The notes beneath the pieces are model-generated. The model was given only the letters and a program-made list of their open reading frames with translations, did not search any database and was not told the DNA's origin. Below, in pieces: positions 2,086-62,076 of a DNA stretch of 64,000 bases. Source of the stretch: Odiellus spinosus (taxonomy: Eukaryota > Arthropoda > Arachnida > Opiliones > Phalangiidae). Position numbers and translations under genes: made by a program. The DNA lies in contig OY987239.1 of assembly GCA_963920705.1 (NCBI GenBank), forward strand, positions 496,001 to 560,000. Reading direction: 5' to 3'. The first letter of the stretch is position 1. Each line of letters opens with the position of its first letter.

Positions 2086-2111
2086 AATAAGACGAATTTC
2101 ATAAAATTTAC

Positions 2112-37290: not shown

Positions 37291-38090
37291 TTTTACTAGT
37301 ACCTGGTGAGTTCAGCAAAAATACTTAAAAGAATCTAAGACCATCAGAAATAGGAGCAAAACTGAAATGAAACTTTCAAATCTCCGTGTTAAAATCACAT
37401 AGGTTGGTTTAGGTTGGGTTGGGTTGGGAACTCTTGTATTTTAATATGGAGATTTGAAAATTGCAAATACGTTTTACCAAATTTCTCTTGGTCGTAGATT
37501 TTTAAAAGTATTTTTCTGAGCTCTCCTAATTCTAATTAGTCCATAATTAATTGTGTTAAAATCCCATATGTTGGGCTGAGTTAGGCTAGGTTGGGTTGGG
37601 TTAGGTTAGGTTGGGTCAATTTGGGTAAGGTTGGGTTAGGTTGGGCTTTGCTAGGAACTCTTTAGAAATTTAAGAATTTCAAGTAGTTTTATATATTGTA
37701 ATCTCATGAATATGACTTTAAAATATAAATTTAAATCAACAGTTTCCTTTATTAAGTTGAATTTCATTGTTTTTCTAAACAATAACATTTCATCAATATT
37801 TTACGAAATGTTTGGGTCTAGTGCTCAAGTTACTTGACCATTAAATTATTATAAGTCCATCAAATCGTTTGCTTGCAAAGATTTAATATTTGCGCTCCCG
37901 GGAATTTAATTATATAAATCCCAGCAAAGATTGAACCGAATCATAAGCCCGGAGAAGTGCGGGTTATGCGGTCGAATGGGATAGGCGGTCCAATGGGACA
38001 GTAGGTCCATTGGGACTATCGGTCCAATGGGATTCGGTCGAATGAGAATCGACCCAATGGGATTCTACCCAACGGTACAGAAGCGATTTG
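37291..38090. repeat. GGTTAGG tract plus AATGGGA-type element, copy 2
   Basis: A GGTTAGG tract (37395-37660) is followed by the body gaatatgactttaaaatata, then ttgcgctcccgggaattta, then terminal units ggtccaatgggacagtaggt and gaatgggattcgg. Same order of parts as at 29.2-31.1 kb and 51.8-53.4 kb. Confidence 0.75.
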
Positions 38091-38849
38091 ATATATGACA
38101 GCTTAAAATTATGACGTGTTGGTCACGCGTAAGAGGATGAATAAAATATTTCGTCACGCCCTGCAATTCCCGTCCTTTCTCCAAAAACTGGGTTTACTTC
38201 TGGGCTTTACTATAATTGAATGACGTCATAGGCTGATGACAACGTTTCAGATCCCGATTTCAAAGCCATTTTGTTTTGAAAAAAAAAAATGGAAAATATT
38301 TCGCAGATCATCTTTACGTCAGATCTATCGCGAATGAAATAAAGTATCTCTAAATGAATTCTCTTAGGTTATTTATTATAATATAACAGCGAAAAGAAAG
38401 CTGGATTTGCAAAGCGGCAGAAAACTGTCTAGTAGCGCGTTCAAGCCAGCATAAATGTTCAGCTTTTTGCGTCTTCGCGAGCGCGGCTTTAATAACAATT
38501 CTAAAGTTGGAGTGACTCCGAAAATTCATATCCTATCTTATTTTCCCAGTTAACTCGTATACTCTTCTTCCCTCGTTAATTTAAACTATCGGCTCTTATT
38601 AACTGTAAAGCAAATTCGGGTTGGTGGTCGTAACACAGGTCGTCTTATGGCGCGTAAGATAAGGAAACGGCATGTGATCCTTTGAACTACGCCGTATTTT
38701 ATGGCTTCTTCGCTTTTCGCTTGTCAATGTATTTTTATTTATGGGCTCTATTCTTTGAGGCCCTCCGTATGTCATCCGGCTGTAAAGAATACTCCTTATG
38801 GAGCGCCATCGAATGTTTCGAACGCCTGCAGACTGCGGGTGCCATTAAC
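38091..38849. other. Non-coding stretch, nothing recognised
   Basis: Two small overlapping frames lie near 38680-38901, but neither looks conserved and part of the DNA recurs at 39485. No gene called. Confidence 0.4.
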
Positions 38850-39560
38850 ACTTCCGGAATATTTAAATACGCCAACGAGTCTTAGTTTTAATAATTTCTA
38901 ATAAAAATTCTCTGCACTTTCATTTTCACCCTCTCTTTAAGGGATTAATTTGAATGTATAGTTTTTTAACGGGCTATAAAATTCTTAATCATGTGAAGTT
39001 TTAACAAGTTTAACGTTATTCCATCGTTAGAATAGTTTTTCGAGAATTAAAAAATAAGCCAAAAACATTTAGTTAAATATGGAATAGAGTTAGACCTTAA
39101 TTCTTCCGGAAAATGTGCCCATTTTACCGCGGTATAACCCCAATCTGTTTAAGCCGAATTCGGTTAAAGAGAGTCTGATGAGGTGAAAGGTAAATATTTT
39201 TAAAAATAAGATTTATTTCCGTATTAGAACATTTCCAAAACGTCCCTGGACCGTGCAATATTTAATTAAACAAAGAACATATGACTAATAAATAGATGTT
39301 CCTTCTTACGCCTACTTACGTCCCCGCGTCAAAATAATCAAAACCGAGGCCTAGCGCGATTCATAGGGCGCGTCGCTGCAACGGTCGCGAGTATTTAATT
39401 AAGCCAAAGGTAGGATGCCGTTTGATTAGTCATTTTAAGCCAACGGCCTTTTAAGAGTTTTTCGCCGTCCGGTGACACTTGAATGTTTTAATACGTCAAT
39501 GAGTCTTATTTTTAAGAGAATCTGTTCAAAATACCTATATTTTTCCCTTCACCCTCACAT
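38850..39560. repeat. Pair of related repeats (38850-38945 and 39485-39560)
   Basis: Both contain tttaa(a)tacg, caa(c/t)gagtctta, ttttaa and a following caccctc-c-ttaagg. The DNA between them is not recognised, apart from a weak family B-like piece at 39130-39180. Confidence 0.5.
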
Positions 39561-40167
39561 TAAGGCCCTACCGCACTAAAAAAGCAGTTTTCGATGAATT
39601 TCATTTACGTTTTTAATCCCTTTAAAACTTCAACAAAGCTAAGAAACTTTTCAAACTTAATTATTGAAATCTTATCTTTAAACTGGTAATTTTTTAAGAT
39701 CTTGAAAAAATTAGTTTTTGAGTAATTTTAGTTTAAGTTAATGCCCTTTTGCATTCGCGCTTGTTCATTATAATGTAACTAGCGTCAAATGTATGGGTCC
39801 GAAATTTTTTATTCTAAGCTCTTTTCAATCACAATTGTTGGGTCAAAGAGATGAGATACTTTCAGGAAGATTCAATTATTAATTCGGGAGTTAAGTAAGT
39901 TCAAAGTCAAATTTAGTTTTTCGAAAATTTCTACATGATTTTCATACATCGAAATCACACACTTCTTTTCATTTTACAATTTCGAAAAACCTTCATCCCC
40001 TGAAATACACATTCAGCTTTTTTTTTAAAACAATTCCCGTAATTTTCCCATTACTGATACGCGTGCGAGTTAAGTTTAAATACAGTGCTATATTTCGCCA
40101 TTGAAATTAACCTTGTGCCCAAAATCTCGTAGTTCCGGCAAAATCCGCTCGGGCGCCACCGAATTCT
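39561..40167. other. AT-rich non-coding stretch, nothing recognised
   Basis: No gene, RNA gene or repeat could be supported. Confidence 0.4.
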
Positions 40168-40289
40168 GACCTAATAGCTGCGATTTCTTTCCTCCGTATT
40201 ACCCTCTATCATCAAAGGTCCCGTGGGGGCAATTATCCAGTAAGTAAGATGACTCGCCGCGCGGGACGTCCGATCTCAGCTATTAGGTC
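40168..40289. mobile_element. Small MITE, gacctaatagctg ends
   Basis: Ends gacctaatagctgcgat and atctcagctattaggtc are inverted over 17 bp with one or two mismatches; the interior is GC-richer. Confidence 0.65.
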
Positions 40290-40616
40290 GTAAAAAAGAA
40301 GGGTACCCTTCTCCGGGACATTTCGCTGGGGGTGGAGGGGTTTGGGGGGGGGGCTAAGTGCTTCTAAAACTACAACAATACTTTTGGCTAAATAAAGAAG
40401 GCATTTTCTTTACGCGGTCCTGAAATGATATAGTTGGCAATGATACCGCGAAGTGACATATAATATTGAACCCAATAAAGAAAATAGTAAACACATTTTG
40501 CGCTTTCTCTTATGGTTGGGGAGATGCTATTTTTGCTCCTTATGTTTTCCTAGAGTTTCAACGAAGTTTTGAATCTTTATTTTCGTTATTCCTCTCGCTC
40601 GGAGACACGAACATAT
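40290..40616. other. Stretch with a G-rich run
   Basis: Contains ggggtttggggggggggcta near 40336. Nothing else recognised. Confidence 0.4.
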
Positions 40617-40816
40617 ACATAGTTTTCACTAAAGGGGGTAAGTGCCGTTCCCCCCATGTTGCCAACCACTTGTGAGTGCAGAGGGAAAGGCTAGAGTTCA
40701 GTTTTGAAACTAATCTGTTCTGAACTGCACTCACAAGCTCCTGGCAACCTGGGAATGAAAGCAAAGCTGGGTAAGAGGGGTGGAATTATCTTTTGCCCCT
40801 TTACTGAAAACTATGT
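40617..40816. mobile_element. MITE family C, copy 2
   Basis: Ends acatagttttcactaaaggg and cctttactgaaaactatgt. Inverted relative to the copy at 32746-32912. Interior inverted pairs include cactcacaagctcctggcaa. Confidence 0.8.
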
Positions 40817-41458
40817 ATAAGCATATTTCAAATTAATTCTAAAAGGTAGGATAAATAAAAATGTATTTGTTATAGCCTATAGGCAATCATATTTCAAAAT
40901 CAACGTGAAGAAATGTATGAGTAACGTCCATATATTAATCCTAGCGTTGATTTGACCGACAGATATACCTAACATAATTATCAATTTGGAAAAAACTGTT
41001 ATACATAAGTTGGCTCAAAGTTGAGCTTTTAGTTTTCAACGATAAGTATTTTAGTAGTCAAGCTAAAACATTACGCTCCATTACTTTTTATAGAAGTGTA
41101 AACCCCAAAGCAAAGTATATTCTTGCGCAAGAACACAGGTTCCAAAAAAAAAAAATAATAAAATAAAAATCTTATCCCTTACAATAAGCACTGTTCGCAA
41201 ATTAGAATCAATGCGTTGATAGCCGGAGGAATTCTTTTTATAAGGACCATCTGCCCATTTTAGTCCCCGTCCCGTTCATCGTAATAGTGTCTCAACGCAT
41301 AATACACGAGATAAAGGGAAGGGTGTATATTTTTTGTTAAAGAGAAAATGAAGTCTGTCAAGGATTTTTTATTGATTGCTTAATTTTTAAATAGGTCTAA
41401 TAATATTTAATTATAAATAAATTTTTAACTTATTCGGAAAATATGGATTCGCGGTAAT
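40817..41458. other. Non-coding stretch, nothing recognised
   Basis: AT-rich with short A runs; no gene or repeat supported. Confidence 0.4.
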
Positions 41459-41595
41459 TAATTTTTTTTGCAGTGGGTGCGCCGATCAATCAGCGAACGC
41501 GAATCGGGGTTGCTATGGAAACACTCGAGTAGGGCGCGCTTCAGCTCGGTATTATGTGGCACGCACGTTCGCTGACTGATCGGCAAAAAAATTAA
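41459..41595. mobile_element. Small MITE, gccgatcaatcagcgaacg ends
   Basis: gccgatcaatcagcgaacg is inverted as cgttcgctgactgatcggc (one mismatch), extended outward by aattttttttgc / gcaaaaaaatt. The interior is GC-rich. Confidence 0.8.
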
Positions 41596-42426
41596 ATATC
41601 TAAGAATCCCCGCTAAGCCTATAAAAGTTTTAAAAAATACTAATTAAATAATCTGTAAAATTGTAACTGGTGAATTAGATCTATGATGAGATCGATAAAA
41701 ACTACTAGTTGTCAGACTTCATTCTCCCTTTAAATACCCACAGTTGACTATTCTTGAATACTTTTTCCTTTCATGGATATTCTGGTTTCCTACTCATTTT
41801 ATGACCAATTTATCACTTGAAGGGAATTCCTATTTTTGAGGGGCGGTAAAGTCAAACGAAACAAACTTTTAGCCGATATAATAGAAAAATCTTGGAAGAG
41901 TCAATAAAAAATTAAGAAACCCCCACGGTTTCTTAATTTTTCAGTACTTTCAAATTAGCTAGTCAACAGTTTATCTATTGCTTAAACGAGAATTGAGCTC
42001 ACTGGAAGAGACCACTTACACTTTGAAATTTCAGGTTGAATTTATCACATTTTCTGGAAAATCTCACTACGCGACGTCTTGTTTAGAATAAAATCGAAGC
42101 TAAGGTGGCAGAAAACCTTAACTTTTTTTTGTGGTACAGCCTTAAGGGTTTAATTTTGATAGATGAGAAATATTTCAGTTATTCAATATGAAACTCAATC
42201 TAAGTATTTATATTTTTATTAGTATTTCATCATTACAATTTTTCGCGAAATAACAAAAATTACAGTATTAATTAAGCCTCGTTTTCAGTCCAGATTTTTG
42301 GGACAAAAAATATCTTTTTCGATAGTAATTTGACTTAGTTACTACGAAAAATCTACTTCTTTGGTCCAAAAAACTTGATTGAAAACGCGCCTTTTTTCTC
42401 TCAATCACGGCACGGAGTTAAGCCGA
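41596..42426. other. Non-coding stretch with two small hairpins
   Basis: Contains aaattaagaaacc / ggtttcttaattt near 41910-41937 and an inverted pair gttttca-tccagatttttgg against ccaaaaaacttgattgaaaac (about 42279-42385). No gene. Confidence 0.5.
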
Positions 42427-42565
42427 GTTATACCCTCTGCAGACGAGGCTTAATTAGCCGGTTTACTCTTGTTTGACTGAGGTTTATTTAGCTTTTGTAG
42501 TTCATTAAACCTGGTTAAATCTGATTAAACCGGGCTAATTACGCCTCGTCCGAAGAGGGTATAAC
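42427..42565. mobile_element. MITE family B, copy 5
   Basis: gttataccctctgcagacga at the left and cctcgtccgaagagggtata at the right, near-palindromic throughout. Confidence 0.9.
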
Positions 42566-44194
42566 CCTTTAAATTATCGAGGATAGCCAAATGAACGTAA
42601 AATACGCAATTCCGAAACTAGCTGATAAAAAAATTCTTTCACTCGCCCTTTAGGAACTTTAAACTTAGCTAAAGCTCGAATCCAAGTACCTAATCGCTTA
42701 GTCAGTGAACGCATTTGCGAAATCGAATTTATAACCCCTCTGATTTAAAATTTTACGAAATGACGATGAAGATAAAGGTTAACTTAAAGTAATAAAAAGT
42801 TTTCAACTTCGGTAAATAAGAATAAAATCACAATATATATATATATATATTTTTAAGCCATTATTATTAATTATATACTTAGTGCAGAATATCTATCGTG
42901 AAAACCGAAATAGGATAATTTAAAATTATATAGCAATGAAATTAAAGGTAAAATTAAACGAGCTGTACGAATTCGGAGATGTTAAATTAGCAACTTAAAT
43001 ATCACGAATCCAAAATCGGACGAGGACCTAATGAAAGATAGCATTACGACCGGAAACATCCGCTAAGATTCAAAGTAACGATTGCCCATTGAAGAATAGG
43101 TTCTTGGGAGAGGGGCGATGAATAATTTCAAAGCTTCCGAATGAGGGACCGCTCCTTTTTTCTTTCGGTACCTATTTGACGTATCTTGAAATCTTTGTTA
43201 ATGTTGTTTCTTTATAGGAAAAAGTGGGCTAAAAGCCCTTCAGGTAATTACCTCTATGGGGTTGTAGACGAAATTTCTTGACGGAAGCGCTGTCTCCGTT
43301 AACGAAGGTTTTCCATTGGCCAAGGACAATTTCGCGGTAATTCACACAACCTACGAGGGATCCTAGAAAAGTAGCACTCTCCGAAGGGACAACCTGTTAC
43401 TTTTAGAAACTCGGACCAAGTAAGCCGCATTTAAAATTTCATTTCAGCAAACTCGGGAATTTTTAGAAAGTAACGTCAGAATTTTACTCCTCAGTACGAA
43501 CGTAAGAATTATCGCGGAGCGAACTTGTTGCTAATACAGCCTAAGTTTAAAAACATTCAAAAATCTTCTAAGAATTGGTTTTCTTAGACGTAAGTCGCTT
43601 GATTTTAGTTTATCCGTCCATTTAACGTAATACGATGCAACGTATATTCACTACTAAAAAAGGCTAAAACGCCCAACTAGAACGACTCTTCAAGAGCCTC
43701 ATCTTTTTCCATCACAAGACACCCGTAATTTACAACGAAAGGTACGTACTTTTTTTTTAAAGAAGGTAGACCTTATTTCGTATATTTGAACGGGAAACGA
43801 TTCCTCAAAGATAATAATTCCGGAAAAAAAGTTATATATCGATCGACTCGTTTCTATTAAGCTTAAGAATTTTTGTTCGTATCGTCGTACGGTGCTCGCT
43901 TATTAGGCAATTATTTCTTAAAGGGATAATACAGCCCGACGAAATATTCTTAAAGGTTAAACGGGGTCGTACGTTTTCATTATGAAAATTTGTAAAGATT
44001 CAACATTAGCTCTACGCTGTAATTCCACTAAATTTAAAGGTCGCGATTCAAAGTTTTGAAATAATCTAACTTTTATTATCAATTGATCGATTACATTCGC
44101 ACTTGTGAGATCAACAAAGTATTTTCTTCTTTTACACGCTATTGAAATATGTAAGGGGCTGTACGCGTCTTTATTTCCCGAGTTTATGGTCATT
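42566..44194. other. Non-coding stretch with (TA)n
   Basis: A TA dinucleotide run lies at about 42832-42851. The minus strand has an 88-codon frame at 43957-44223 that I could not tie to any family. Nothing else recognised. Confidence 0.4.
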
Positions 44195-44625
44195 TTAATT
44201 GCAGCCGAATTATTTTTACGCAATGAATATGACTTTAAAATTTAAATAAAAGTTTAAAGTTAAATTTCTGTGATTTAAAAAGGTTTGGTTATTCTAAACA
44301 GTACATTTTGCTTAATATATAACCAAATTTTTGGGTCTAGTTCTCATTTTACTTGATTATTAAATTATTATAAGTCAATCAGATCGTTTACTGGCAAAGA
44401 TTCAATCTTTCCGTTCCCGGAAATTTATAATTTAATTTTCATCTGGTATATTGAAGTAAAGATCATGTCCCAATGGACCGAATATTAAACCCGGATAAGT
44501 GCGGATTTTTCGGTTCAATGGGACCCAATCACATTGGACCGAAACCGCCAAAGTGCGGAGTTTTCGGTCGAATGGGAATGCGTGCGGTCGTATGGGACTC
44601 GGTGCAATGGAAATGAAGCATTGTT
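44195..44625. repeat. AATGGGA-type element, copy 3
   Basis: Close to copy 1 at 30395: gcagccgaatta, gaatatgactttaaaattta, ttccgttcccggaaattta, gtcccaatggaccgaatatt, then gtcgaatgggaatgcgtgcg. It lacks the GGTTAGG tract. Confidence 0.85.
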
Positions 44626-44639
44626 CATTGGTCGCTGGC

Positions 44640-44765
44640 CCTTATTAGCAAAAATTCCAGATTTCAGTGAATCCAGTTTTTGCATATTTTATCGCTAAGT
44701 TCCAAATTTATTTTTAGCTTAATGTTTCTTTCAAAATTACTAGTGAATTAGGCCTATTTAAAAGA
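44640..44765. mobile_element. MITE family A, partial copy 4
   Basis: Right half only: cagtgaatccag, ttccaaatttatttttagctt and attaggcctatttaaa match the tails of the other copies. Confidence 0.6.
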
Positions 44766-45025
44766 TGAGTATTCGATAATAAATCACACGTTGTGAGGTC
44801 GCGCTATTCTTGTAAGGCGTATTTTCATTTAAATGGTTAAAAATGCTAAAAGCTTTGGATTTGACATTTTTCCGTTACAGAATGAAACTCTTACCGGATC
44901 TTCCTACTGTTCAACTTTGAATTTAAGACTTTGTTAAATACCAAGCGAATTTTTGCACAAATACGGCTTAAAAGTATTCCCGACAGAATCCCCAAACATT
45001 TAGCTATATATTCTTGCTTTTCAAA

Positions 45026-45281
45026 ATGTCAGAAGACGCTACGGTCATTAAACGACAGTTCAGAAACAATATACCTTGTCCAGTGTGCAGCGTCAACACA
45101 AAAGGTCGCTTACCCGAACATTTTAGGCGAGCGCACAAGTTCTCCGAAAAAACGATAAAAAAGATTAATAGCGAAACTAGGGACTTGCATTCCCGAGAAG
45201 GACAATTCAAACGCGCTCGTATTTTGCGATCCAAAATGATGGATTATCTATCGGCCAGAAATGGACTGGTTAAAATTACAG
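45026..45281 (+). CDS. Recombinase gene exon 1 (zinc finger)
   Basis: Starts ATG tcagaagac. It encodes MSEDATVIKRQF then the C2H2 finger and a helical basic tail, and ends in phase 1 at donor gtataatg. Upstream UTG/CTG-type starts exist, but ATG at 45026 is the first methionine before the finger. Confidence 0.8.
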
Positions 45282-45352
45282 GTATAATGTTTTATTTGTT
45301 TATTTATAATGCCGAGAATGTTTTTCATACGTCATTTCATTTGAAATCCAAG

Positions 45353-45481
45353 CCGTTGAAAAGTATTTGAAGAAACTTGGACACGTTATTGTAGAGGATG
45401 ACGATGAGGATTTCTCGCTTTCAAAGTCGGCGTTGGACAACAGTGAAGAAAATTCAAACGCGATAGTACCCACGCGCTCAG
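45353..45481 (+). CDS. Recombinase gene exon 2
   Basis: Between acceptor gaaatccaag and donor gtatttt; phase 1 to 1. It encodes VEKYLKKLGHVIVEDDDEDF and a Ser/Asn-rich end. Counterpart of 3982-4035. Confidence 0.75.
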
Positions 45482-46041
45482 GTATTTTTAAAATTTTTAT
45501 CCTTTCAAATAAGAAGTTAAGTCCGTTAGAAGGCACACCCTGAGAGCTCACGGTACTATCACAATTAGCCGCCAAGCCAGGTGTGCTAAAAATCGAAGTT
45601 TTTTGAGACTTGATTTTAAAAATCATGCTTTTCATGATTTTCGAATCATGGTTATTCGAGTCATGGTTATTCGAGTCATGGTTATTAAAATCATGATTTT
45701 CATTACTGACAGTCTAACACCCAACACTCATAAGCTTACTTATTATCTCGTTTGCAACCACTTGTGTTTGCTATCGAGTATAGTTTATTTTCAAGCTTCT
45801 GTCGACGTCTGGTGGGTACGAAATTCTATTGTCATTTTCGCTTCCTCTTTTGAACATACTACAACATACTAAAGCCAAGTACAATGCCGTAGCCTATACC
45901 TATCCCCCGCGTGATTTTGTTTTCGTCACGTAGCCACGTTAGAACCGAAATTATTAAAGTCGATCTATCTCTTTTTTTTTTTCCCTAGTAACTCGCTATA
46001 TTTTTAGCCAAATAATTGATAATATGAAATATTTGCCGTAG
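45482..46041. other. Intron 2 of recombinase gene
   Basis: Contains a short tandem repeat atcatggttattcgagtcat near 45640-45690. Otherwise nothing. Confidence 0.6.
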
Positions 46042-46272
46042 GTCTAAAACGAAAAGCCACGCGAGAATTGTTTTACGATGATAACAGTGAAGAAAATACG
46101 TCTTCAGACGAAGAAATTGAATCTGGAAACGAGCGACATATTGAATGGGGGATTAATACTACAAAAGGAAAACTTAAGAAAGCTGGTCTTTACCGAGCTT
46201 TTCCAAAAAATCATCCTTTATTAAAGGAATTTCAAACCTTTCTACTAGATAACATGGGCTCAATAAGCGAAG
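46042..46272 (+). CDS. Recombinase gene exon 3
   Basis: Acceptor tttgccgtag, phase 1 to 1. It encodes LKRKATRELFYDDNSEENTS, then HPLLKEFQTFLLDNMG, the start of the core-binding region. The donor is taken as gtactg at 46273 because only this fits the phase of exon 4. A read-through to 46394 is also open. Confidence 0.7.
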
Positions 46273-47072
46273 GTACTGTGAAAGTTTACGTATTATATAA
46301 GCCTTCAAAAAATCCATCTCATCCCATTAGGTGTTTATCGAAAACCTATAATCACACCCACTCCAGTAGAAGGTTTGGGATAGTTATTTTTTAAATGTAA
46401 GATTTCAATTATTAGAAACAAATGCAGATTGTCACTATTTATATTTCCCCATGTTATTTTCTGTTATCAGTTAATTTAACCCTAAATATAAGCATATTCG
46501 TGTAAGAACTAGTTGGCCTCACCACCTACCCTTAACTCAAGGCTTTAAAATCCATGGTGATGACTTCGTCGTTGCGCAATGGTACATCCATCAATCGGCG
46601 AAAACTTTGATAGGTTCTCCCCTAATTAAAAATATTCAATGCTGTTAATAAAAAGTCCTAAATAATGCATGAAATGATAAATGGTGATTTCTGCCGTAGT
46701 TCGCGTCAATTTCTTCTATTACCTAACATTCCTGGACGTTATCAAGTCTGGCACACGTTATTGATATAACGATCCGATACCTCATTCGCGCGCGGCATTT
46801 GGAGTTAACATATCTCCGTTTTTAGGTTTCTAAGACATACAATAATCAAAAATTTTAAATGGCATTGTGTCCACGGTTTAGATAAAACTTAAGTTTTTTA
46901 AAAAATTATTATCAGAAGGATACTTCATGGACTTGTATTTTTAAAATTTTAATATAAGGTAAAATGTTTATATAATAAAAATTGCAGAAAAATCGCGTTT
47001 TACAATTTGAACCCTCACTCTATTTCGAAACAAATTTGAGTACTAATAAAATTTAAATAATAACAATTTTAG
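46273..47072. other. Intron 3 of recombinase gene
   Basis: About 800 bp with no repeat or gene recognised. Confidence 0.6.
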
Positions 47073-47355
47073 AAGCCAACAAACAAGATTGTAGCCGTGT
47101 TTCCAAAATTCTGAAATTTATGTCGAAATCAGGTGGAAAAAACATCGATTTTGCGATATTTTCAGACACGTCGAAGCTAACCGAGTACATCACGAAACTG
47201 AGGCATTGTGGCGTAAGAGTACACACTAAGAAATCTAGGAATTGAAGCATTATTGATTCAGTTTTTATCCGCTCAGATGACTGCCGAGGCGATTAAAAAT
47301 TTTATTAGCTCCTTTGAGAAGTTTCTTAAATTCGTTTTGCATTGCAAGAATCCCG
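47073..47355 (+). CDS. Recombinase gene exon 4 (frameshifted)
   Basis: Acceptor acaattttag. It encodes DCSRVSKILKFMSKSGG and TEYITKLRHCGVRVHTKK. After one surplus base near 47243 it continues LLIQFLSAQMTAEAIKN and FEKFLKFVLHCKNP. The length is 283 nt instead of a multiple of three. This is the core-binding helical region of the recombinase. Confidence 0.65.
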
Positions 47356-47424
47356 GTAATATTTACAGCACGGTGATAAACTCTCGGTAAAATTATTATA
47401 TTTTAAATTTTTTACGTATTCTAG

Positions 47425-47683
47425 AGGAGTCATTGGAAAAGAATATTGCCCGTTTTGTAAGAAACCTAACCCTCTTAAAAACCTCCAACTCTAAGCGAAT
47501 GAACCAAGAGTCCGTGGAACGGAAATTTGATCTTTTGGTGTCGGACAAAAACCCGCCTAGCATAGGGACAATAATTGAGCCATTTAATAACCGTGATATA
47601 ATTGAAAACGTTAATCATTGTTTGGCTGTTGTCGAAAAGGAAGGCGTTGCTTCTCACGAAGTTGAATACGCAACTGTTGTCCA
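47425..47683 (+). CDS. Recombinase gene exon 5
   Basis: Acceptor gtattctag, donor gtaagc; phase 1 to 2. It encodes EKNIARFVRNLTLLKTSNSK and continues to HEVEYATVVQ, the end of the core-binding region leading into the catalytic domain. Confidence 0.75.
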
Positions 47684-47756
47684 GTAAGCGAATGAAATTA
47701 TTATAAAAAAATCTAAGTCATATCTAACACGTTCGTTCTAAATTAACCAAAAATAG

Positions 47757-47954
47757 GTACTGTTTCGCGTATATAAGCGTAAAGACGGCCCAACGTCCTG
47801 GAGTTGCCAAAAACATGACTCTTCAAGAATACAACTTAGGGCGTATGGATGAAATGGGTGATTACTACATTGTAAATGTAAAAAATCATAAAACCGGCAC
47901 CAAAAGTCCCGCTCACGTAGCTATTACTATGGAAGTTAAAGCCCTGTTTGACAG
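47757..47954 (+). CDS. Recombinase gene exon 6 (catalytic Arg and Lys)
   Basis: Acceptor aaaaatag, donor gtgtga; phase 2 to 2. It encodes TAQRPGVAKNMTLQEY with the first catalytic Arg, and VKNHKTGTKSPAHVAI with the catalytic Lys in the beta-hairpin. Confidence 0.85.
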
Positions 47955-48023
47955 GTGTGAGATACTGCTTGAATTTCGCTAATTAACTAATTATAATGTT
48001 GTTACGTTATTTAAACTTCGTAG

Positions 48024-48131
48024 ATACAGAGACATACTTAGAGCGAAGTTTCCCAAAGCGAGCAGTGAAAAATCATTTTTTCTTACATCTAAAGGAGAAA
48101 AATACTCAAACGCTTCGAAGGTTGTTTCAAG
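48024..48131 (+). CDS. Recombinase gene exon 7
   Basis: Acceptor cttcgtag, donor gtatac; phase 2 to 2. It encodes RDILRAKFPKASSEKSFFLT and GEKYSNASKVVS, the spacer before the second Arg box. Confidence 0.75.
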
Positions 48132-48392
48132 GTATACTTCAATTTCGGTTTTAGCTAATGTTATTATCTTAAATTATAGCTTTTGGGTAGTATTGCACTT
48201 TACCTAACTAACCCATTAAACACTTTTTTTCTGACTAATGTGACCATGGGGAGTTATAAAAATAGTTTAAAAATATTAGGCCGGCGCAAATATTTTTAAT
48301 TTTATTTAAAAATTTCACAATTGCATGTTTTTTACCATAAATTCCGCATACTAGGTTGAGGGGGATACCTTCACGACGGAGATATACCAATG

Positions 48393-48673
48393 CAAGGAGG
48401 ATCAGAGAAGGAGAGGAAATGTGGGGCTGCGTTGAGTTAGAGAGAGAAGAGCCAACCTCCCACTCGGGTGGAAAGGGGGGATAGGAAATTCTCGAGGTAA
48501 ACTGTTGTCACGTGGTCGCTAGCTAGCGCGTCTCATAAAGGATTCGTTTTACCCACGCGACAACATTTTACCACGAAACGTCTCTACCCCCGTTCTCCCA
48601 GAGTGGGAGTTTAGGCCGACGCAGTAGGAACCGCGCCGTCCCCGCATTTCCTCTCCTTCTCTGATCCTCCTTG
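48393..48673. mobile_element. Nested MITE (281 bp) with 7-bp target duplication
   Basis: Ends CAAGGAGGATCAGAGAAGGA and its complement; the perfect arm is about 29 bp. Target duplication accaatg at 48386-48392 and 48674-48680. The interior is GC-rich with inverted cccactcggg / cccagagtggg-like pieces. Confidence 0.9.
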
Positions 48674-48699
48674 ACCAATGTAACTTCAAACATCTATAA

Positions 48700-48860
48700 A
48701 AAGCTAATTATAGAAAAGGGCGCCAGTTCAAAAACCGATATTTTGGAAAAGGCGCCAATATCAAAAACCCCTATTTTGGAAAGGCGCATAGTTAAAAAAA
48801 ACATATTTAAGAAAAGGCGCCTAAATCAAAAGCCCATATTTTGGAATAGGCGCAGTTTTA
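48700..48860. repeat. Minisatellite of about 36 bp, ggcgcc units
   Basis: About four units with ggcgcc, a-tcaaaaacc and atattttggaaaa. Confidence 0.75.
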
Positions 48861-48904
48861 TGTAAGATTTTGAACCTAATTTACTTTTCAATATTTTAGA
48901 AAAT

Positions 48905-49430
48905 TGAAATTGGCGCAAAACACTCTAGAGCCTCATTAGGTTAGCAAATTGAAATTGGCCTAAAACACTGTACAGTCTCAATAGGTTAGCAAATTGAAAT
49001 TGGCCTAAAACACTGTAAAACCCTAATAGTTTAGCAAATTGAAATTCGCCTAAAACAATGTAAAGTCTCAATAGGCTAGCAAATTGAAACTGGCCAAAAA
49101 CACTGTAAAGTCTCAATAGGTAGCAAATTGAAATTGGCATAAAACACTGTAGAGCTTCATTAGCTTAGCAAATTAAAATTTGCCTAAAACACTAAAGTTG
49201 TAATAGGTTAGCAAATTGAAATTAGCCTAAAACACTAAAGTTGTAATAGGTTAGCAAATTGAAATTAGCCTAAAACACTGTTAACTCCTAAGTTATCAAA
49301 TAGAAATTGGCCTAAAACACTGTAAAGTCTCAAAAGGTTAGCAAAGTGAAATTGGCCAAAAACATTGTAAAGTCTCAATAGGTTAGCAAATTGAAATTGG
49401 CCTAAAACATTGTAAAGCTCCTTTAACAAA
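48905..49430. repeat. Minisatellite of about 45 bp, about 11 copies
   Basis: Units with ggttagcaaattgaaattgg, cctaaaacactgtaaagtct and caata. Small open frames on the minus strand come from the repeat. Confidence 0.9.
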
Positions 49431-49603
49431 AACCAATGGGCCTTTTCCAAAATATTAATTTTTATATATGTTTAAACTTACATAGGTACATCTCCGTCGC
49501 GAGTCCGTTACGAAGTTGCGTCCATTCCCAACCCTTGGCAAATTGTGTATGATTGAGTGCGTAATGCACTATGCGGAATTTATGGAACAAAACATGAAAT
49601 TTT

Positions 49604-49643
<40 letters not shown>

Positions 49644-49806
49644 TTGCGGCGTCCCAATATTTTTAACTGTGTTTTTAACATCTCATGGTCTAATTAGTCA
49701 GAAAAATGTGTTTGTTGGGCTAGTTAGGTAACGTGCAATCCTACCAGATTATGTTTGATGCCCTATTGATGTGATATACTTTTAAAACTACCATTTTCTA
49801 TTTAAG

Positions 49807-50030
49807 CTTCTATTTAAAGCATAACCTAGGACCGATTACAGCAACGCTAGCCCGAAAAGCGTATCAAACAGCGGCTGACCGAGATTTAACCGAAACCGAG
49901 AAAAAGTCAGTATCGAGTTTTTTGGCGCACAGCGAGGGCACGGCTGTGCGTAATTACCGTTGGACTAACACGGAAGGCATCGCCAAACAAGTTCGATTAT
50001 TAGCGAGTCTCGAGCCTGAAAATGAAGAGA
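49807..50030 (+). CDS. Recombinase gene exon 8 (catalytic Arg, His, Tyr)
   Basis: Acceptor ttctatttaag, donor gtgagt; phase 2 to 1. It encodes HNLGPITATLARKAYQTAAD and LAHSEGTAVRNYRWTN, with Arg, His and the Tyr nucleophile in the usual spacing. Confidence 0.85.
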
Positions 50031-50149
50031 GTGAGTAGGAAGCACGATTTTCTTAGAAACTTAATTCAGTAGTAATTCTGTAATCGGATAACTGAATTCT
50101 TTAAGCATTTATTCACGAGGGGAAAATTGAATTTATTTCGAATTTCAAC

Positions 50150-50400
50150 AGCTATTTTCTCTGAAGCCTCGGCAGCGGCTTTAGCAATAGCGGTTTCCCA
50201 AAACAGCTGCTTCCTAAAACTGGTTTTTTAATAAATAAACATTCGACGGTTTCTCATAATATCATTTCCTAGTTGGGCAGCTTTAGTACAAGAGTAAAGA
50301 GTCTACATATCCCAGACTTAAGTTGCTAAAATAGCTGTTTCCCGAAACAGAGGGATATTGTGGCTAAAACCCTCGCGGTTTCTCATATGAGGGAATATTA
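50150..50400. repeat. Degenerate minisatellite in recombinase intron 8
   Basis: agcggtttcccaaaacagct, acggtttctcat and gctgtttcccgaaacag pieces, of the same type as 2785-2955. Confidence 0.55.
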
Positions 50401-50614
50401 TTTGGGCGCGTACTTCCGACGGCGCATGCATTATACTCGCCTATATATTGCGCAAAGGAACATGTAACTATTAACATGTAACAAACACTCGCGGGTGTAT
50501 TCTTATACAGCAGTGTCATACATTTTCCCAATAGAACGAATAACCAATGCTAAGCGTGATGAAAGTCTAAAATGGCGTAAATAATCAATTTTTTATTTCT
50601 TATTGATCTTTCAG

Positions 50615-50838
50615 AGAACGAACTTGGCACGGAGAGTCCACTTACTCAAGCAAAAGCCTTCATACTTGACATTTTTCCAGTCGAAGTTGAAGCGGATCTT
50701 CCTTCAGCGGATGTTCTTCGCGAAAAAATCAAGGAAGCTATGAATATCGATGTCACAAGATCGCAAATGGAGAGTGTTAAAGGACACTGGATCTATAAAA
50801 GACTTTTGAAACGAGCAGACTTAGTAGCTAACGAGTAA
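50615..50838 (+). CDS. Recombinase gene exon 9 (C-terminus)
   Basis: Acceptor atctttcag. It encodes NELGTESPLTQAKAFILD, LPSADVLREKIKEA and MESVKGHWIYKRLLKRAD, then stop TAA at 50836. The gagtaatt at the stop is also a possible donor (gtaatt). Used with the acceptor at 50898, it would add 29 residues before another stop. Confidence 0.7.
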
Positions 50839-50898
50839 TTAGATTCGAAATACATAAACAGACATTCTTACTGATATTTATTCACAATTCTAACAGAA

Positions 50899-51015
50899 TT
50901 GCTCGAGACACAAGCTGCAGTGAGCGGGACGCGGAAAATGCCCTTTACGAGAGGAATTGGTACACAAAAAAAAACAGCGATTAAAGTCATGTCCATTGTA
51001 AAAAGCCTCGAAACG
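50899..51015 (+). CDS. Unrecognised gene exon A
   Basis: After acceptor tctaacag. It encodes LLETQAAVSGTRKMPFTRGI and VMSIVKSLET, ending in phase 0 at donor gtatgttc. An internal ATG is at 50938. The frame before ATG is open, so it may equally be an internal exon. Confidence 0.5.
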
Positions 51016-54000
51016 GTATGTTCAATTTTTATTTTGAAAGTGTTAGTACTTTAAGATAAAGAATTGCGTATACGTCAAATTTCTAAAAAAGTGCCTCGGG
51101 AAGAGACATTTTTAATTCAACGTTAGCAGTTGTAAAATTTTGGTTTATGGTGGCACTGTGAAAAAACACTTTTCTGAAAACAGTCGATTATATCAATAAT
51201 TAGTTAACGAAGATAAAACTAAAAACGACCCTAAGAAATAATTTTTAACTAAAAAGAAAGAAGTTTGTCATGATGAGTTAATCGTTTTTTTCTCCGATTT
51301 AAAAAAAAATTACCTTATCCTCGGTCATATACCATAGGACCGAATTCCCATTTGACCAAACGATAAAATAGCAAAGCTCATATAAAAAATAGCCTTCTTG
51401 CGGGTTTCGATTGAATGGTATTTCTTCCTATTCAATCAAAAATTTCTTTACATATAACATATCAATGTTACCACAAGTAAATCATCCGCAAGTGTGTTAG
51501 ACGACATACTGCGGGTAACAGTGTAGTAGACTCTATTTTCTCAGTTCATTGTTTTAATATAAGTATTATGAAATTTGTACAGTATGGCAGCGTGATCGAA
51601 AAGTTTCTCTAACCATATAGTTAACTATACTTGATCTCTTACAAATAACGAAAGAACAACAGTTATATTGGGGCCAGCCTTCAGACAGCTAGGGTTCTTT
51701 ACAACATTTTACCCTATAAGAATTGCGAATCACTTGTTGTTTAAGACCATCACTAGCAAAGACTCAGAGACTTTTATAATTCCCGCCTCTTATTCGCGGC
51801 CATGTGTTAGTCCATTTTGAGCTGGTTAGATTAGACAGGGTTGAGTTATGTTGGGTTAGGTTAGGTAAGATTGGGTTGGGCTGTGTTGGCTTTTTATGTT
51901 TGGTTTAGTTAGCTTTGGGTTTGGTTTTTAGGTTGAGTTAGGTTAGATGTGGTTTGCTTAGGATAGGTTAGGTTAGGTTAGATTAGGGTTGAAAGGTTGT
52001 GTTAGGTTAGGTTGGGTTAGGTTAGGCTGGGTTGAGTTGGATTGGTTTAGGTAAGATTGGGTTTGTTTCGGTTGTGTTAGGTTAGAATTTTAGGATGGGT
52101 TGGGTTTTGGGTTTCGATTGAGTTCGGTTGGGTTGGTCTAGGTAAGGTTAGGTTAGGTAAGGTTAGGTTAGGTTAAGTTAGGGTACGCTAGGTTGGGTTT
52201 GTTTTTGTTGGGTTGGATTCGAACTTTACGATGGGTTGGGATAGGTTTTTAGGTTACGTTAGTTTGTTTTTGGAATCGCCATAGTTTCGGTGGGATAGGT
52301 TTGGGTTAGTTTGGATTTGATTAGGTTTCGTTCTGGGCTACTTTTAAAAATTTTAAGCATTGTACTCCTTAATTGTGGAATTGATATATTCATATTCTAT
52401 AAATAAAATTGATAATTTTCGTCAAATATCTTCCCTGCACGAAATAACATTTCCTGATTAAAATTATTTTTATAATTACTATGTAAAGTTCTGATTTAAT
52501 TTCGCTGTACCTTTCCTCGATGCTGTAGCAGCCCCAAGATCATATAATTTAAAATTATTCTTAAAAATCAACTAAAAACTATTTCAAAATGTTATTTCCT
52601 ATTATCTTGTTTAGTGAAGACACTGGTAATTATTTACAGAATTATAGAATTAATAATACAAAAATAAACTGCACCCGATCGAATCATTCATACGTGATGA
52701 AAATTACTTAAAAATATTAATATTTATCAGTAAGTCGCTTTATAAAGGTAAATTTCAGTGTTTTAGAAATATTTTGTTCTTTTAAACCGTAATTTTTCCT
52801 TAAAATTTCACAAAATATTTAGGTTTAGTGCTCAGTTAACCTAACCAATATCTTTATTAGTCAATCATATCTTACCTAGCAAAGATTTAATCTTAGCGTT
52901 CCCGGGAATTTATTTTTAGTTCCAGCGGGTAAATTTAAACATAGATTATCGTCTCGTTTAACCGAATCTTAAAGCAGTGAAATGCTGTTTATTCGGTCCA
53001 ATGGGACTGTCCCATTTAACCGAATAAAAAATCCACTTAAGTGTGGTTTTTCGGTCGAATGGAAATTCGGTCATATGGGAGACAAGCCGTACCCTCGAAT
53101 GGGACCCGAAAAAGATTTTCATTCACTTGCTCGGCAAGCGGTCCACGTGATCGACAACCAAATAATTGACTTTAAGTTGTTGAAAAATACCATTATTATC
53201 GACCACAAAATGATCGATTCCCAAAACAATGGGATTTGGTTCAATTTAGTCGAGTACGAAAAGACAGACTCAGTTAATCGATCCCCAACAGTATATATGC
53301 TCTTGTCGCATAGGATTGTCTTAATAGAACGTAATAGAATTCCATTCGACCGAAAACCCGCACTCGAATCATATCTTTATAAACCAACGCTAGGTATATA
53401 TTAGTGTTAAAAATTACATTAATTTTTTAGAATGATTCGCTGCCAACATCAACAGCAGGAGAAGCAAAATTGACCACGGCCGATTCAGCTGCTGTTTTGC
53501 AATCAAACTCTTCCGCATTGTTAATCCCTCTTCCGTCACCATCGTCAGCATCTAGCACATCTGAGATTTTCAAGCGTCTTCCGGTACCATCGTCAACATC
53601 TAGCACTTCCGTGCCTTCTAGTCCTACTATACCTTCAAATGCGCAGATCTCCAATGCGAGTTCTTCTAAGCTTGGCGTTAATCCTTCGTTCTCGCTGCCA
53701 ACATCAAGCCATCACAGATCAACAGCAGAACACAAAAAATTGATCACGGCCGAGACGCTCGCTGGTTTACAATCAAACTCTTCCACATTTCTAATCCCTA
53801 TTCCGTCACCATCGATAACATCTAGCACCTCGGAAATTTTAAACCATCTTCCGTTACCATTGTCACCATCAAGCATTTCCGTCTTTTCCAGTCCTACCGT
53901 ACCTTCAAATGCGCAGACTTATAATGCGAGGTCTTCTAAGCTTGGCGTTTATCCTCCTTTACCTACCAATGTCCGTAAACCCACTGAAAAACGAATATTT

Positions 54001-56769
54001 CCATTGTACTTGGATAATAATTCGAAAGTTTTAGCAGCATCAAATTATCGAAGGGGTATGTTTGCAACATTATATTAAACCGGAAAACGAGCGAAATGAA
54101 AATTACCACACGAAACAACTTATATATAATTCCAATGAATGGTGTCACTGTAATATTTTCTAATAATTCCATACTCACGTTATTAACCAAATAATAATTG
54201 TTTTGAAAATTGTTATACGGATGCTACAAATGGCATTAAACGATTAATTTAAATTTAATATGTAATCAGATTATATTAAGTCATCTAGCATTTATGTGAC
54301 TTGACTTATTCTAATCTGCCATAATTGTAAACGTTTGTAGCAGAGTCTCGCGTGGTGAATGCTTAAAAAGTTTTTTTTGCCGCTTTCAATTTTGTCAGTT
54401 TAGCGGCTAGAAAAACCATTTTTAATGCTCTAAATTTTAAAAAATACGTATTCCGTCTTTTCATTCACTCGCTTATTTTTCTTTAAAGGCGAATGAATAA
54501 TAATTTAATCTTAAAATTAATTTTATCTACCTAAAAATAGGACAGATAGTCTGGAAATTCAGTTGTCGTACCGTAACTGGAAACTTGGCGAAAAACATGC
54601 GGACTTCAAAGGAGTTTTATTTTAAATTCACGAAAAATCGCGCGAAATTTTTCGTGATTGGCCATAACTCCAAACTTCAACTTCTTTGTAAAATACTAAT
54701 CATACTTAACAAATTTAAATGATCTGGTAATGTTTACTTTGAGATAAAGTTACCAAAAAATGAGTTTGAATCAAAAAAGGCATACTGATTTTTGTGATAT
54801 TTAGTTTGGTTTTAAAGTATATTTCCATCTTATCAACGGACTAGTTGTCTGCTACAAAAAAGCATGGAGCCCCTGTGTTTGAATTTCCGAGGTGGGCAAT
54901 AGGCGCTTATATGATTAAACAAATAATTCCTAAAAACTAACAACTAACAAGGTCTGTCAGGATAAAAATTATTTCATTTGAAATCAAGACGTAGCGAACG
55001 CGTTAATAAGGGACCTTATGAGAGTTGCGTAACGTGGTCTCTCAGGACAAACATTATTTCATTTGAAAAACAAAACGTCGCGAACACGTTAATAAGGGAT
55101 CTTATTGCTGTTGCGTAACATGGTCTGTCAGGACAAAAAATATTAGATTTGAAAAACCTAATTTGAAAACATGAGGGTGTGGCTATGCTTATGGGTTTAC
55201 CCATCTTGTTAGCTTCTACCTCAAAGAAATGCAACGGAATTTTTTTGTTGATAATGTTTTATTAATAATTTTAGTATGATACACCGCAAAGAAGATAAAC
55301 TAGGGTATTTCACATTAGCCCCAATGATATATGGAGGTGAGATGTCCAAAATGTCTTCGGAAATGGACTCTGGGACTGAATTAATTGATTATAGTTTATA
55401 AAAATCGACGGGAAATTTATAGTACGCTTGATAATTTAAAGGTTGTCACGCGCAATTTCCGTCGTTCGAATGCAAGGGTTCATCCGACAGGGTAATGTCT
55501 TAAACACCCGCTGATGAACAAATATCAAATTCCAATTTTAAACGCAAAATTTTGGTTTATCAGATTTAGATCATAATTTTTACCTTTAAAATTGTAGACT
55601 TTAAAATTATAATAATTCAATATTTGTTGATCGGCGGGTAGTTATTAAGACACTACCCTATCGTATGAACCACATATGTCATTCGAACGATGATAATAAA
55701 AACCATATCTCGGAAACGCGCTCGGAAACCTGTATATTAAAGGCAACAATTATTCTTTAGTTTACGTTCGATTACAAGTCTTTCTACGCTCAAGTCATTT
55801 ATTTCATGATCAAGTCTTTCAATGGATATGGAGTCTGGCGACGATAATGATGAGTGTAGTAATTAATATGTCCCCTATTTCAATAAGGTTGAAAGTTTAA
55901 ATATTACTCCTGGATTATTTGAAATTATCATAATCTAATGTTCATTTTATATGTATTTCCCAACTCTTTGATCTATCTAACATATAAATTATTTTATTTA
56001 GGTAGACAATTACTATCCAACTCTTCGCATTTCATCCCTCCGTCGGGATCGATGGATTTAAATAGTCAAGTATGAAAAATATTTCCTTATCGCGGAACTG
56101 TTTTAATTTATTTAACGTTCATTTTAGGGTCAAGGTGAAACTGTGAAATCTGTGTCGAATTTTGTCCCTACGCTAAACAAATCCATTAGACGAAGTGGCA
56201 CGATAAAATCTGCCACACTAAAAAAAGAGAAAGAATTGTGTGACGAAGAAAAGAAATTAAGCGTAGTACTCGAGTACGTTGAACACGCGTTGGATCATAT
56301 GAAAGACGTAAGCTTTTAAGTGCTTAGAAATGGCAGTAAATTTAACGCCAAACATATTAATTAATTAACGCCAAACATATTAATAGTTCGAAGGAACAAC
56401 GGTGCCACACAAAGCCATGTCGCAGTGCAAACACGTGATATACCAGTACATGGAAGAAATTGAGGAAAAAAGGAGGTATAATATTCGAGTCGACTTCCCA
56501 AGAAAAATACAGAGGCTCGTCGACGGGGTGGAGTTTGGAAGATCACCTGATCTGTTCAACGACGAAAAATTGGAAGAGATATTGAAGTCCGCATCGACCT
56601 CCACTGAAATTTTGGTATGTGAGCCTTATAATTTAATTATATTTACTTTGGGTGATACATATTGCAGTAAAGTGTAATTTTTCTATATTAAAGCGCGCAG
56701 TACGTACACCTTCAAGAAACACTCCTTACAGAGCTCGAAGGAAAGGTAGAGGAAGGTGGTGATTTGTAA
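50899..56769 (+). CDS. Unrecognised multi-exon gene, Ser/Pro-rich plus coiled-coil-like
   Basis: Six plus-strand exons join with agreeing phases: 50899-51015 (ATG at 50938), 53431-54055, 56002-56069, 56128-56307, 56387-56614 and 56701-56769. The product from 50938 is about 415 residues. The first part (26 residues) is basic. Residues about 27-234 are rich in Ser, Thr and Pro, with two tandem copies of a block of about 95 residues. The last 180 residues are charged and helical (KKEKELCDEEKKLSVVLEYV, QYMEEIEEKRRYN, LFNDEKLEEILKSAS). AATAAA follows at 56779-56784. It starts 60 bp after the recombinase stop; linking the two would need a one-base change in phase. I do not recognise the family. An alternative short start exists at 55822. 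Confidence 0.55.
51016..51799. other. Non-coding stretch with AATGGGA-type pieces
   Basis: cggtcatataccataggacc, gaattcccatttgacc and gattgaatggtatttcttcc lie around 51330-51440, and may be the distal end of the element at 51.8-53.4 kb. Otherwise nothing. Confidence 0.5.
51800..52345. repeat. Degenerate GGTTAGG tract
   Basis: ggttaggttaggtaaggtta and gggttgggtt variants over about 540 bp. Interrupted and irregular, so not a functional telomere. Confidence 0.85.
52346..53400. repeat. AATGGGA-type element, copy 4
   Basis: Body with ttagcgttcccgggaattta, then ggtccaatgggactgtccca, aagtgtggtttttcggtcga and ggaaattcggtcatatggga. It ends with attccattcgaccgaaaacc in reverse sense near 53340. The frame 52982-53404 is a by-product of the repeat. 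Confidence 0.75.
53431..54055 (+). CDS. Unrecognised gene exon B (Ser/Pro-rich, internal duplication)
   Basis: 625 nt between acceptor aattttttag and donor gtatgttt; phase 0 to 1. Two tandem blocks align: LQSNSSALLIPLPSPSSAS and LQSNSSTFLIPIPSPSITS, then SNAQISNASSSKLGV and SNAQTYNARSSKLGV. The end is basic (RKPTEKRIFPLYLDNNSK). Low-complexity, probably unstructured. Confidence 0.6.
54056..55821. other. Long intron with a local direct repeat
   Basis: A unit containing ggtctgtcaggataaaa-ttatttcatttgaaa and gcgaacgcgttaataaggga recurs at about 54950, 55035 and 55120 (period about 85). No exon recognised. Confidence 0.55.
55822..55858 (+). CDS. Alternative first exon of the unrecognised gene
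   Basis: ATG gatatggag, encoding MDMESGDDNDEC, with donor gtaatt in phase 1. It therefore splices in frame to 56002, as exon B does. It would give a protein of about 193 residues without the Ser/Pro-rich part, from a separate promoter upstream of 55822. Confidence 0.45.
56002..56069 (+). CDS. Unrecognised gene exon C
   Basis: Acceptor ttttatttag, donor gtatga; phase 1 to 0. It encodes RQLLSNSSHFIPPSGSMDLN. Confidence 0.6.
56128..56307 (+). CDS. Unrecognised gene exon D
   Basis: Acceptor cattttag, donor gtaagc; phase 0 to 0; 60 codons. Basic start (KSIRRSGTIKSATLKKEKE), then a helix LSVVLEYVEHALDHMKD. Confidence 0.65.
56387..56614 (+). CDS. Unrecognised gene exon E
   Basis: Acceptor attaatag, donor gtatgt; phase 0 to 0; 76 codons. 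It encodes HKAMSQCKHVIYQYMEEIEE, IRVDFPRKIQRLVDGVEFGR and an acidic helix. The most conserved-looking exon of the gene. Confidence 0.65.
56701..56769 (+). CDS. Unrecognised gene last exon
   Basis: Acceptor agcgcgcag; YVHLQETLLTELEGKVEEGG to stop TAA at 56767. AATAAA at 56779-56784 marks the 3' end. Confidence 0.6.
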   Translation, partial: YVHLQETLLTELEGKVEEGGDL

Positions 56770-56778
56770 AACCGAAAT

Positions 56779-56784
56779 AATAAA
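56779..56784 (+). promoter_or_regulatory. Poly(A) signal AATAAA
   Basis: Ten bases after the stop codon of the unrecognised gene. Confidence 0.55.
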
Positions 56785-57260
56785 GATATAATTTCATGAA
56801 TTGGTTATCTTTAATGTCTTAGAGTTTAGTTTACTCCTAAGACATTCCGTTCAACGGGAATTCCTATAATCAGGCTGCCACATTGATTAGCTTCAGGTAT
56901 TGTGTAATTACATGCAAAAGCATGTCATCGCCTTCCACCATCTACATCATGGTCGAACCTCGATGGTGGACACTTGAAGGCGATTATAGCCAATGGGACA
57001 TCTCCCACTGTTATAATCATCTCCGACCATCCCAAAGTTCCAAGGTCCAACCTCCTGTTTCCCATCACAGCGGGCCATATTATCGAGGCGACCCTCACTA
57101 ATATGGTCCACATCAACCTTCCACTCTCCCCCTCCACGGGTCAACGTCTATTTCACATAGACACCAATCAGACATATTGGTTTCTACTACTCCCTCTACG
57201 GATCTTTGTGGTGCAGTTACCGAATGCCTAGTGGTCCACCTGTAGACTTTGAGAAGCAGC
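56785..57260. other. GC-richer stretch of unknown nature
   Basis: Overlapping open frames on both strands (56883-57231) and an inverted pair ccaccatctacatcatgg / ccatcgaggttcgacc-like. No family recognised. It may be an old element fragment. Confidence 0.35.
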
Positions 57261-61922: not shown

Positions 61923-62065
61923 AAAAGAAAGCCGAATATTATAAAACAAATATATCTCAAATTGCGAAAAGGAAAGCTGTGCATTATGAAACCATTCAAT
62001 CTCAAATTGCTAAAAAGAGGGCCGTGCACTATAGAACTAATCTTTCTCAAATAGCAAAAAAAATG
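61795..62065 (+). pseudogene. Basic 14-15-residue repeats of the Helitron-like protein
   Basis: In the frame of 61799-62173: AVHYKTNQAEIAEKRH, VHYKTNQSHIVKKKAE, YYKTNISQIAKRKA and so on, six copies. Similar Lys-rich HY-x-TN repeats precede the Helitron region in several animal Pif1/Helitron proteins. The frame changes again at an A8 run (62056-62063). Confidence 0.65.
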
Positions 62066-62076
62066 CAGTTTACCGT

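Follow-up and report, generated by a model that had tools for sequence, protein, structure and literature searches.

The stretch of DNA analysed here (the window) comprises 64,000 nucleotides of the arachnid Odiellus spinosus and corresponds to positions 496001-560000 of contig OY987239.1 (C17) in a genome assembly of 443 Mb and 286 contigs. At 45026-50838 on the forward strand it contains a gene that, judged from its sequence, is predicted to encode a C2H2 zinc finger and a catalytically equipped tyrosine recombinase (YR). Joining of ten exons, all on this strand, yielded a frame of 615 amino acids without a stop, which runs from an ATG at 45026 to a TAA at 50836-50838; all introns are of the GT-AG type and all phases match. 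Exon 1 (45026-45281) holds the start codon and the finger (C-x2-C ... H-x4-H), and its homologues were found in L030 (E 1e-8), a distant member of the family treated below, and in L072 (E 3e-14, by profile). It is followed by an acidic linker in exon 2 (45353-45481), by further linker and a KAGLY..HPLL block in exon 3 (46042-46272) and by exon 4 (47073-47212). The N-terminal part of the recombinase is encoded by exon 5 (47277-47355), which starts with M.AE.IKN, and by exon 6 (47425-47683). Exon 7 (47757-47954) supplies the catalytic Arg (AQRPGV) and Lys (NHKTGT), and exon 9 (49807-50030), beyond exon 8 (48024-48131), the second Arg (TATLARK), the His (LAHSEGT) and the Tyr (RNYRW). Exon 9 starts at 49807; by reading of the sequence, an alternative acceptor at 49819/49820 leads into a stop. 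An earlier reading made from the letters alone (the sequence-only reading) had located the finger exon and these five motifs at the same place and on the same strand, and its view of the locus as a many-exon zinc finger and tyrosine recombinase gene is borne out, the key residues being in register with those of known YRs.

This register was obtained with a YR family profile of seven lineages of the same genome, which was aligned by hhalign with a reference profile of XerD, XerC (partial), FimB, FimE and lambda Int. The two profiles matched at 93.1% (score 55.2, 146 columns). The best of 30 column shuffles reached a score of 18.6 (0.5%), the reversed profile 0.1% and five unrelated single Escherichia coli proteins at most 0.8%. 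The Arg, Lys, Arg, His and Tyr of the family align, without any shift from the residues first pointed out, on the XerD positions that we take to be catalytic, and the spacing of nine between His and Tyr is the same as in XerD. Among the seven rows the first Arg, the Lys, the His and the Tyr are present in all, and the second Arg in six (the row from C136 is frame-broken there). The catalytic set is not as full as had been proposed: the position of the XerD His in HxxR is occupied by Thr in five rows, including that of the window, and by Ile in one (one row is frame-broken), so that the set reads R-K-(T)-R-H-Y. The missing His is counted as variation and not as exclusion from the tyrosine recombinase superfamily. 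Scans of IMG/VR for relatives gave none that could be confirmed.

A protein search with exon 9 found 17 places in the genome, nine of them distant and eight close copies, which all lie on C17 and on the forward strand. Group A consists of the copies at 0.218 Mb (A218), 0.545 Mb (the window) and 0.657 Mb (A657), group B of those at 1.32, 1.565, 2.89, 5.19 and 5.34 Mb. The common strand is weak evidence, since the copies within a group are duplicates. Between the groups a stretch of about 11.6 kb, with internal gaps, is common (42808-54417, forward). The left end was observed in a single B copy, that at 5.34 Mb. On the right, the stretch extends to 54417 in four of the five B copies and stops at 54222 in the remaining one (1.565 Mb). 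The ends are abrupt, and the flanks of the 5.34-Mb copy (2.2 kb left, 1.6 kb right) do not match window positions 38000-58000. Three B copies share sequence past its right end, which implies that group B is largely one duplicated block. An inverted repeat of 57-58 bp flanks the A unit (two junction pairs, A and B, compared by eye). It was rejected as an element end because it lies outside the stretch common to A and B, and an 18-base piece of it, with at most two mismatches, also occurs inside a B copy. In both A siblings a tandem satellite with units of about 1.3 kb ends just before the duplicated unit (C17:206001-213000 and C17:645001-651500).

The gene model departs from the sequence-only reading at two further points. 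The sequence-only reading had counted nine exons and had taken a frame break near 47243 for a surplus base that disables the fourth. Up to 50838 there are ten, the supposed fourth exon being 47073-47212 plus 47277-47355 with an overlooked phase-0 intron of 64 bases in between (47213-47276; GTAAGA...CTCAG). The same frame break is present in L009, L010 and L029, so that it occurs in both groups and, with the window, in the four close copies that have the exon; as the groups diverged under selection (see below), interpreting it as a lesion is difficult. In L030 the same position shows a GTAAGT donor, with a phase-0 junction between G and M. An overlooked intron of 64 bases can mimic a disabling frameshift. 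The second point concerns the 3' end. Exon 10 (50615-50838) ends with the TAA at 50836-50838 or, if spliced on, at 50834; use of a GTAATT donor at 50835 eliminates the TAA, and the gene then runs on in phase into exon 11 (50897-51015). This exon is like the one that precedes the pre-SET in relatives, with a profile E of only 0.31 in the window and an in-phase peptide that is alike by reading. It is open and in phase in all seven other close copies, and only in the window copy is its frame broken, in an A-run, with a stop at 50982-50984. A Ser/Pro-rich candidate exon 12 (53431-54057), open in group A and in each of three B copies compared, is unproven; its nonsynonymous divergence (dN) of 0.105 against a synonymous divergence (dS) of 0.123 gives no clear constraint.

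Between the window and the 5.34-Mb B copy, dS was 0.149 and dN 0.042 over 553 codons (ratio 0.28, Fisher p = 1.2e-9), and the noncoding divergence (K) between A and B was about 0.14, close to dS. Groups A and B thus diverged under purifying selection. Exons 5-9 and 11 are better conserved than introns and flanks. The presence of eight close copies, this conservation and a dS near noncoding K with a far lower dN place the gene model beyond chance. Exons 5-9 (47277-50030) show fewer synonymous changes between A and B than the other exons (p = 3e-4). Within the groups, for which the older exon bounds were used (the original exon 4 in two frames) and stops were left out, dN was at least as high as dS in four B pairs (one B pair identical) and between A218 and A657. 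The window gave dN/dS ratios of 0.41 and 0.33 with A218 and A657, on 7 synonymous changes, and noncoding K was 0.004, lower than both dN and dS. About three nonsynonymous and two synonymous changes fall on the window branch; no constraint is visible in these, which are too few for a test.

Each of the eight close copies carries a disabling lesion, that of the window being the frame break in exon 11. A218 and A657 have two stops in exon 3 in common, and A218 alone has a third, in exon 4. In the 5.34-Mb copy exon 2 contains a stop, exon 7 is interrupted by 1.9 kb of inserted sequence and exon 9 lacks 69 bases. In the four other B copies the match starts at window position 47583, inside exon 6, among the matches listed (the upstream sequence was checked for L028). 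The sequence-only reading had considered the gene to be kept by the host or lost very recently, a view against which it would itself have held several further lesions in relatives. These were found in A218, A657, the 5.34-Mb copy and the four B copies. Recent loss fits what was observed. Retention by the host is disfavoured because all eight close copies are disabled and several other lineages have decayed.

The genome contains about eight divergent YR lineages, of which several are decayed (members on C8, C18 and C136). In six of them (L019, L024, L025, L026, L027 and L030) pre-SET or SET exons lie behind the YR exons on the same strand. Both domains are found in L019, L025, L027 and L030, decayed pieces in L026, and a pre-SET without a SET match in L024. 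Near the lineage at C8:3.548 Mb there was no SET match among the matches listed, and at C1:6.17 Mb pre-SET and SET occur with no YR exon within the 7.5 kb examined. In L030, where splice sites were chosen by a simple score, 13 exons could be chained with GT-AG introns and without a stop, and YR and SET exons would splice in phase. Its SET domain matches Pfam SET with E 9.3e-15 and has its best PDB matches, hence its closest solved structure, in KMT5A/SETD8 (E ~8e-12). L030 is apparently an open C2H2-YR-SET gene with a KMT5A-like SET domain, as far as domain matches indicate. It differs from KMT5A/SETD8 in that the SET domain, absent from the window lineage, is fused behind a finger and a YR. 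Compared with L024 over 232 codons, L030 gave a dN of 0.12 and a dS of 1.87, the latter near saturation. The copies of L030 lie in four places, on C17 (2.443-2.450 Mb), C41, C55 and C234, and are identical over 3,192 bases. In SETMAR a SET domain is fused with a mariner transposase, an enzyme of the DDE class. The likeness is that SET is joined to a transposon enzyme; here, however, the enzyme is a YR, and the match of the SETMAR SET domain to that of L030 is weaker (E 3e-4 versus 8e-12 for KMT5A). A YR-SET fusion was not found in the literature searched, at the level of titles and abstract openings.

By tblastn no SET was detected in 22.5 and 22 kb round the A siblings or in the B pieces searched (17 kb and three of 2.2-3 kb), and in the window tblastn and profile searches gave none downstream of the gene. 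A weak pre-SET-like match (41244-41348, forward, E 0.002) lies upstream of the gene within a dispersed 2.6-kb repeat (39559-42150), copies of which are 95-98% identical on C2, C5, C6, C9 and C17 among the matches listed. A second member of the family lies decayed on the opposite strand. Its remains are a relic C2H2 exon at 9611-9790 (reverse strand, E 1e-10 versus L030), an exon-11-like piece at 2106-2222 (reverse strand, E 0.001) that probably belongs to it, and, on the same strand as the latter, a SET piece 6.4 kb beyond the left edge of the window (C17:489255-489594), together a C2H2-(YR)-SET gene of which the YR exons were not found. Between the two pieces inside the window lies a hAT-like element (5234-7807, reverse strand) with matches to DUF4371 (6.5e-15) and to the hAT dimerisation region (2e-11).

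As for its surroundings, nine of 18 places with YR exon 7 are on C17, which holds 3.1% of the bases; by lineage these are only two of about eight. All listed C17 places of the family and of COX1-like sequence lie below 5.4 Mb of the 13.7 Mb. The first 5.4 Mb are rich in mitochondrial DNA, with nine of the 12 non-mitochondrial COX1 rows (some of them overlapping), and are also home to the listed C17 copies of YR and SET. COX1 on the mitochondrial contig has internal TGA codons and was translated with the invertebrate code. Despite this COX1-like enrichment, C17 as a sex chromosome is unsupported, kinase rows showing no depletion (3/148 versus 4.6 expected). Intron 8 of the window gene contains a high-copy palindromic repeat of about 284 bp (48393-48676, forward) that resembles a miniature inverted-repeat transposable element (MITE) and is absent from both A siblings. 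Among the matches listed (40 of 1305 candidates), 35 other copies are 97-100% identical, and the repeat is a young MITE-like burst. A tandem repeat array occupies 48888-49420 (forward) of the same intron. Positions 54906-64000 form the beginning of a repeat that shows 95-97% identity to pieces of C8:4056963-4067692 and contains a THAP-domain open reading frame (60873-61922; Pfam THAP 5.7e-9) and a 520-amino-acid open reading frame without a Pfam match. Rfam had no match within the 64-kb window.

The family was compared with known systems of the same enzyme class. DIRS and Ngaro retrotransposons have a reverse transcriptase beside the YR. None of the four open reading frames of at least 130 amino acids in 42808-54417 resembled a reverse transcriptase, as judged by reading (broken pieces of one were not sought), and the gene was accordingly not assigned to DIRS/Ngaro. 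In the 2011 survey by Kojima and Jurka, animal Cryptons have no C-terminal domain, and CryptonI elements, which lack terminal repeats, are recorded from insects such as the hemipteran Rhodnius prolixus (PMC3212892). Compared by this description, the family is like animal Cryptons (CryptonA, CryptonI) in having a YR core, with no reverse transcriptase seen, and an arthropod host, insects being among the hosts of Cryptons (PMC3212892). In the two junction pairs read by eye no terminal repeats were seen. Unlike the Cryptons so described, it has no fewer than 11 exons, one of them encoding a C2H2 finger, and six of its roughly eight lineages carry a C-terminal pre-SET/SET; the window lineage conforms to the lack of a C-terminal domain, whereas the family with its six lineages does not. 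In the same survey the DUF3504 genes (KCTD1, KIAA1958 and WOC/ZMYM/QRICH1) are derived from YRs, have lost most catalytic residues and in some cases have introns (PMC3212892). The family resembles them in its several domains and its introns, but the catalytic residues, mostly lost there, are kept here (PMC3212892). It was not placed among them, as no DUF3504 was present among the Pfam families listed for seven members at E ≤ 10, a range in which HMMER filters remove most matches above 0.1, and as these residues are retained.

Taken together, we favour, with modest confidence, the view that the window gene is a recently functional and now disabled copy from a low-copy, multi-exon C2H2 and YR family of this arthropod genome that is most likely Crypton-like. 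The family behaves most like a Crypton-type YR mobile element that would have gained introns as well as finger and SET domains. The discrete 11.6-kb stretch and the many decayed lineages make it element-like; introns and constraint make it gene-like. If it is mobile, the C2H2 finger may help to locate DNA, the Tyr of the recombinase would attack the DNA, aided by Arg, Lys, Arg and His, and the enzyme would cut and rejoin the element, probably via a circle. The SET domain of the sibling lineages may methylate histones at the donor or the target site.

Several observations weigh against this view. On its own, the window sequence failed to match the YR profile (0.5%). Neither Pfam nor PDB returned a YR match for single exons, for seven members or for the family profile, and PHROGs gave one weak 'integrase' match for one of the seven members (E 0.02). 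Terminal repeats, a target duplication, an empty site or a burst of dispersed near-identical copies could not be shown, and the window lineage is without detectable SET. In L030 the donor between exons 2 and 3 is weak (one of 12 junctions) and a start codon was not found. Group A shares at least 14.5-16.4 kb with the window, with gaps, up to the end of the compared sequence, and L030 has flanks in common with C55 (about 8.8 kb) and C41 (about 5.8 kb) that are 99.1-100% identical, so that its copies may be duplications or assembly copies. Shared flanks within group A and the L030 group imply segmental duplication, not transposition, and segmental duplication on C17 is how copying within the groups took place.

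A less probable but possible explanation is that of a domesticated multicopy family, in which an old YR-SET gene kept by the host was amplified on a repeat-rich, possibly sex-linked or heterochromatic region and the window copy is a decaying duplicate. Amplification by segmental duplication, the few copies per lineage, the intron positions in common with L030, the occurrence of a 13-exon, apparently open member at four nearly identical loci, a dN between L030 and L024 that is low against dS, and the ratios of the window with A218 and A657, few as the synonymous changes are, would all agree with it. It is opposed by the lesions in all eight close copies, the decay of the members on C8, C18 and C136, the abrupt ends of the A/B stretch in unrelated flanks and the retention of catalytic residues that DUF3504 genes, in the survey cited, have mostly lost (PMC3212892). 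That the window copy is still functional, its protein ending at the TAA (50836-50838) or at the early exon-11 stop with finger and YR intact, is improbable. Its exons 1-10 are open, and it is the sole full-length A copy of three without internal stops there; yet the break in exon 11 is unique to it, that exon being open in all seven siblings, and the handful of changes on its branch bears no mark of constraint. Least probable is an ordinary CryptonI with introns beside a neighbouring host-derived SET gene, for although CryptonI is known from insects including Rhodnius prolixus and lacks terminal repeats (PMC3212892), the window lineage is without SET and SET occurs without YR exons at C1:6.17 Mb, this is at odds with pre-SET/SET exons behind YR on the same strand in six lineages, with in-phase splicing in L030 and with the absence of a C-terminal domain from animal Cryptons as described in that account.

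Returning to the Crypton-type element, a wider and more tentative proposal is that a family of YR mobile elements fused its recombinase to a KMT5A-like histone methyltransferase behind a C2H2 finger, and that one lineage shed the SET domain before its amplification and inactivation in a single repeat-rich chromosome region. YR elements are rare in eukaryotes, and little is understood of them. If the proposal is true, a single protein could locate a site with its finger, cut and rejoin DNA by strand exchange and mark the chromatin there. Such a C2H2-YR-SET protein would offer a natural way to ask if mobile elements prepare or silence the chromatin where they act, and the apparently open 13-exon L030 makes the idea of a fusion testable by ordinary expression and biochemistry.

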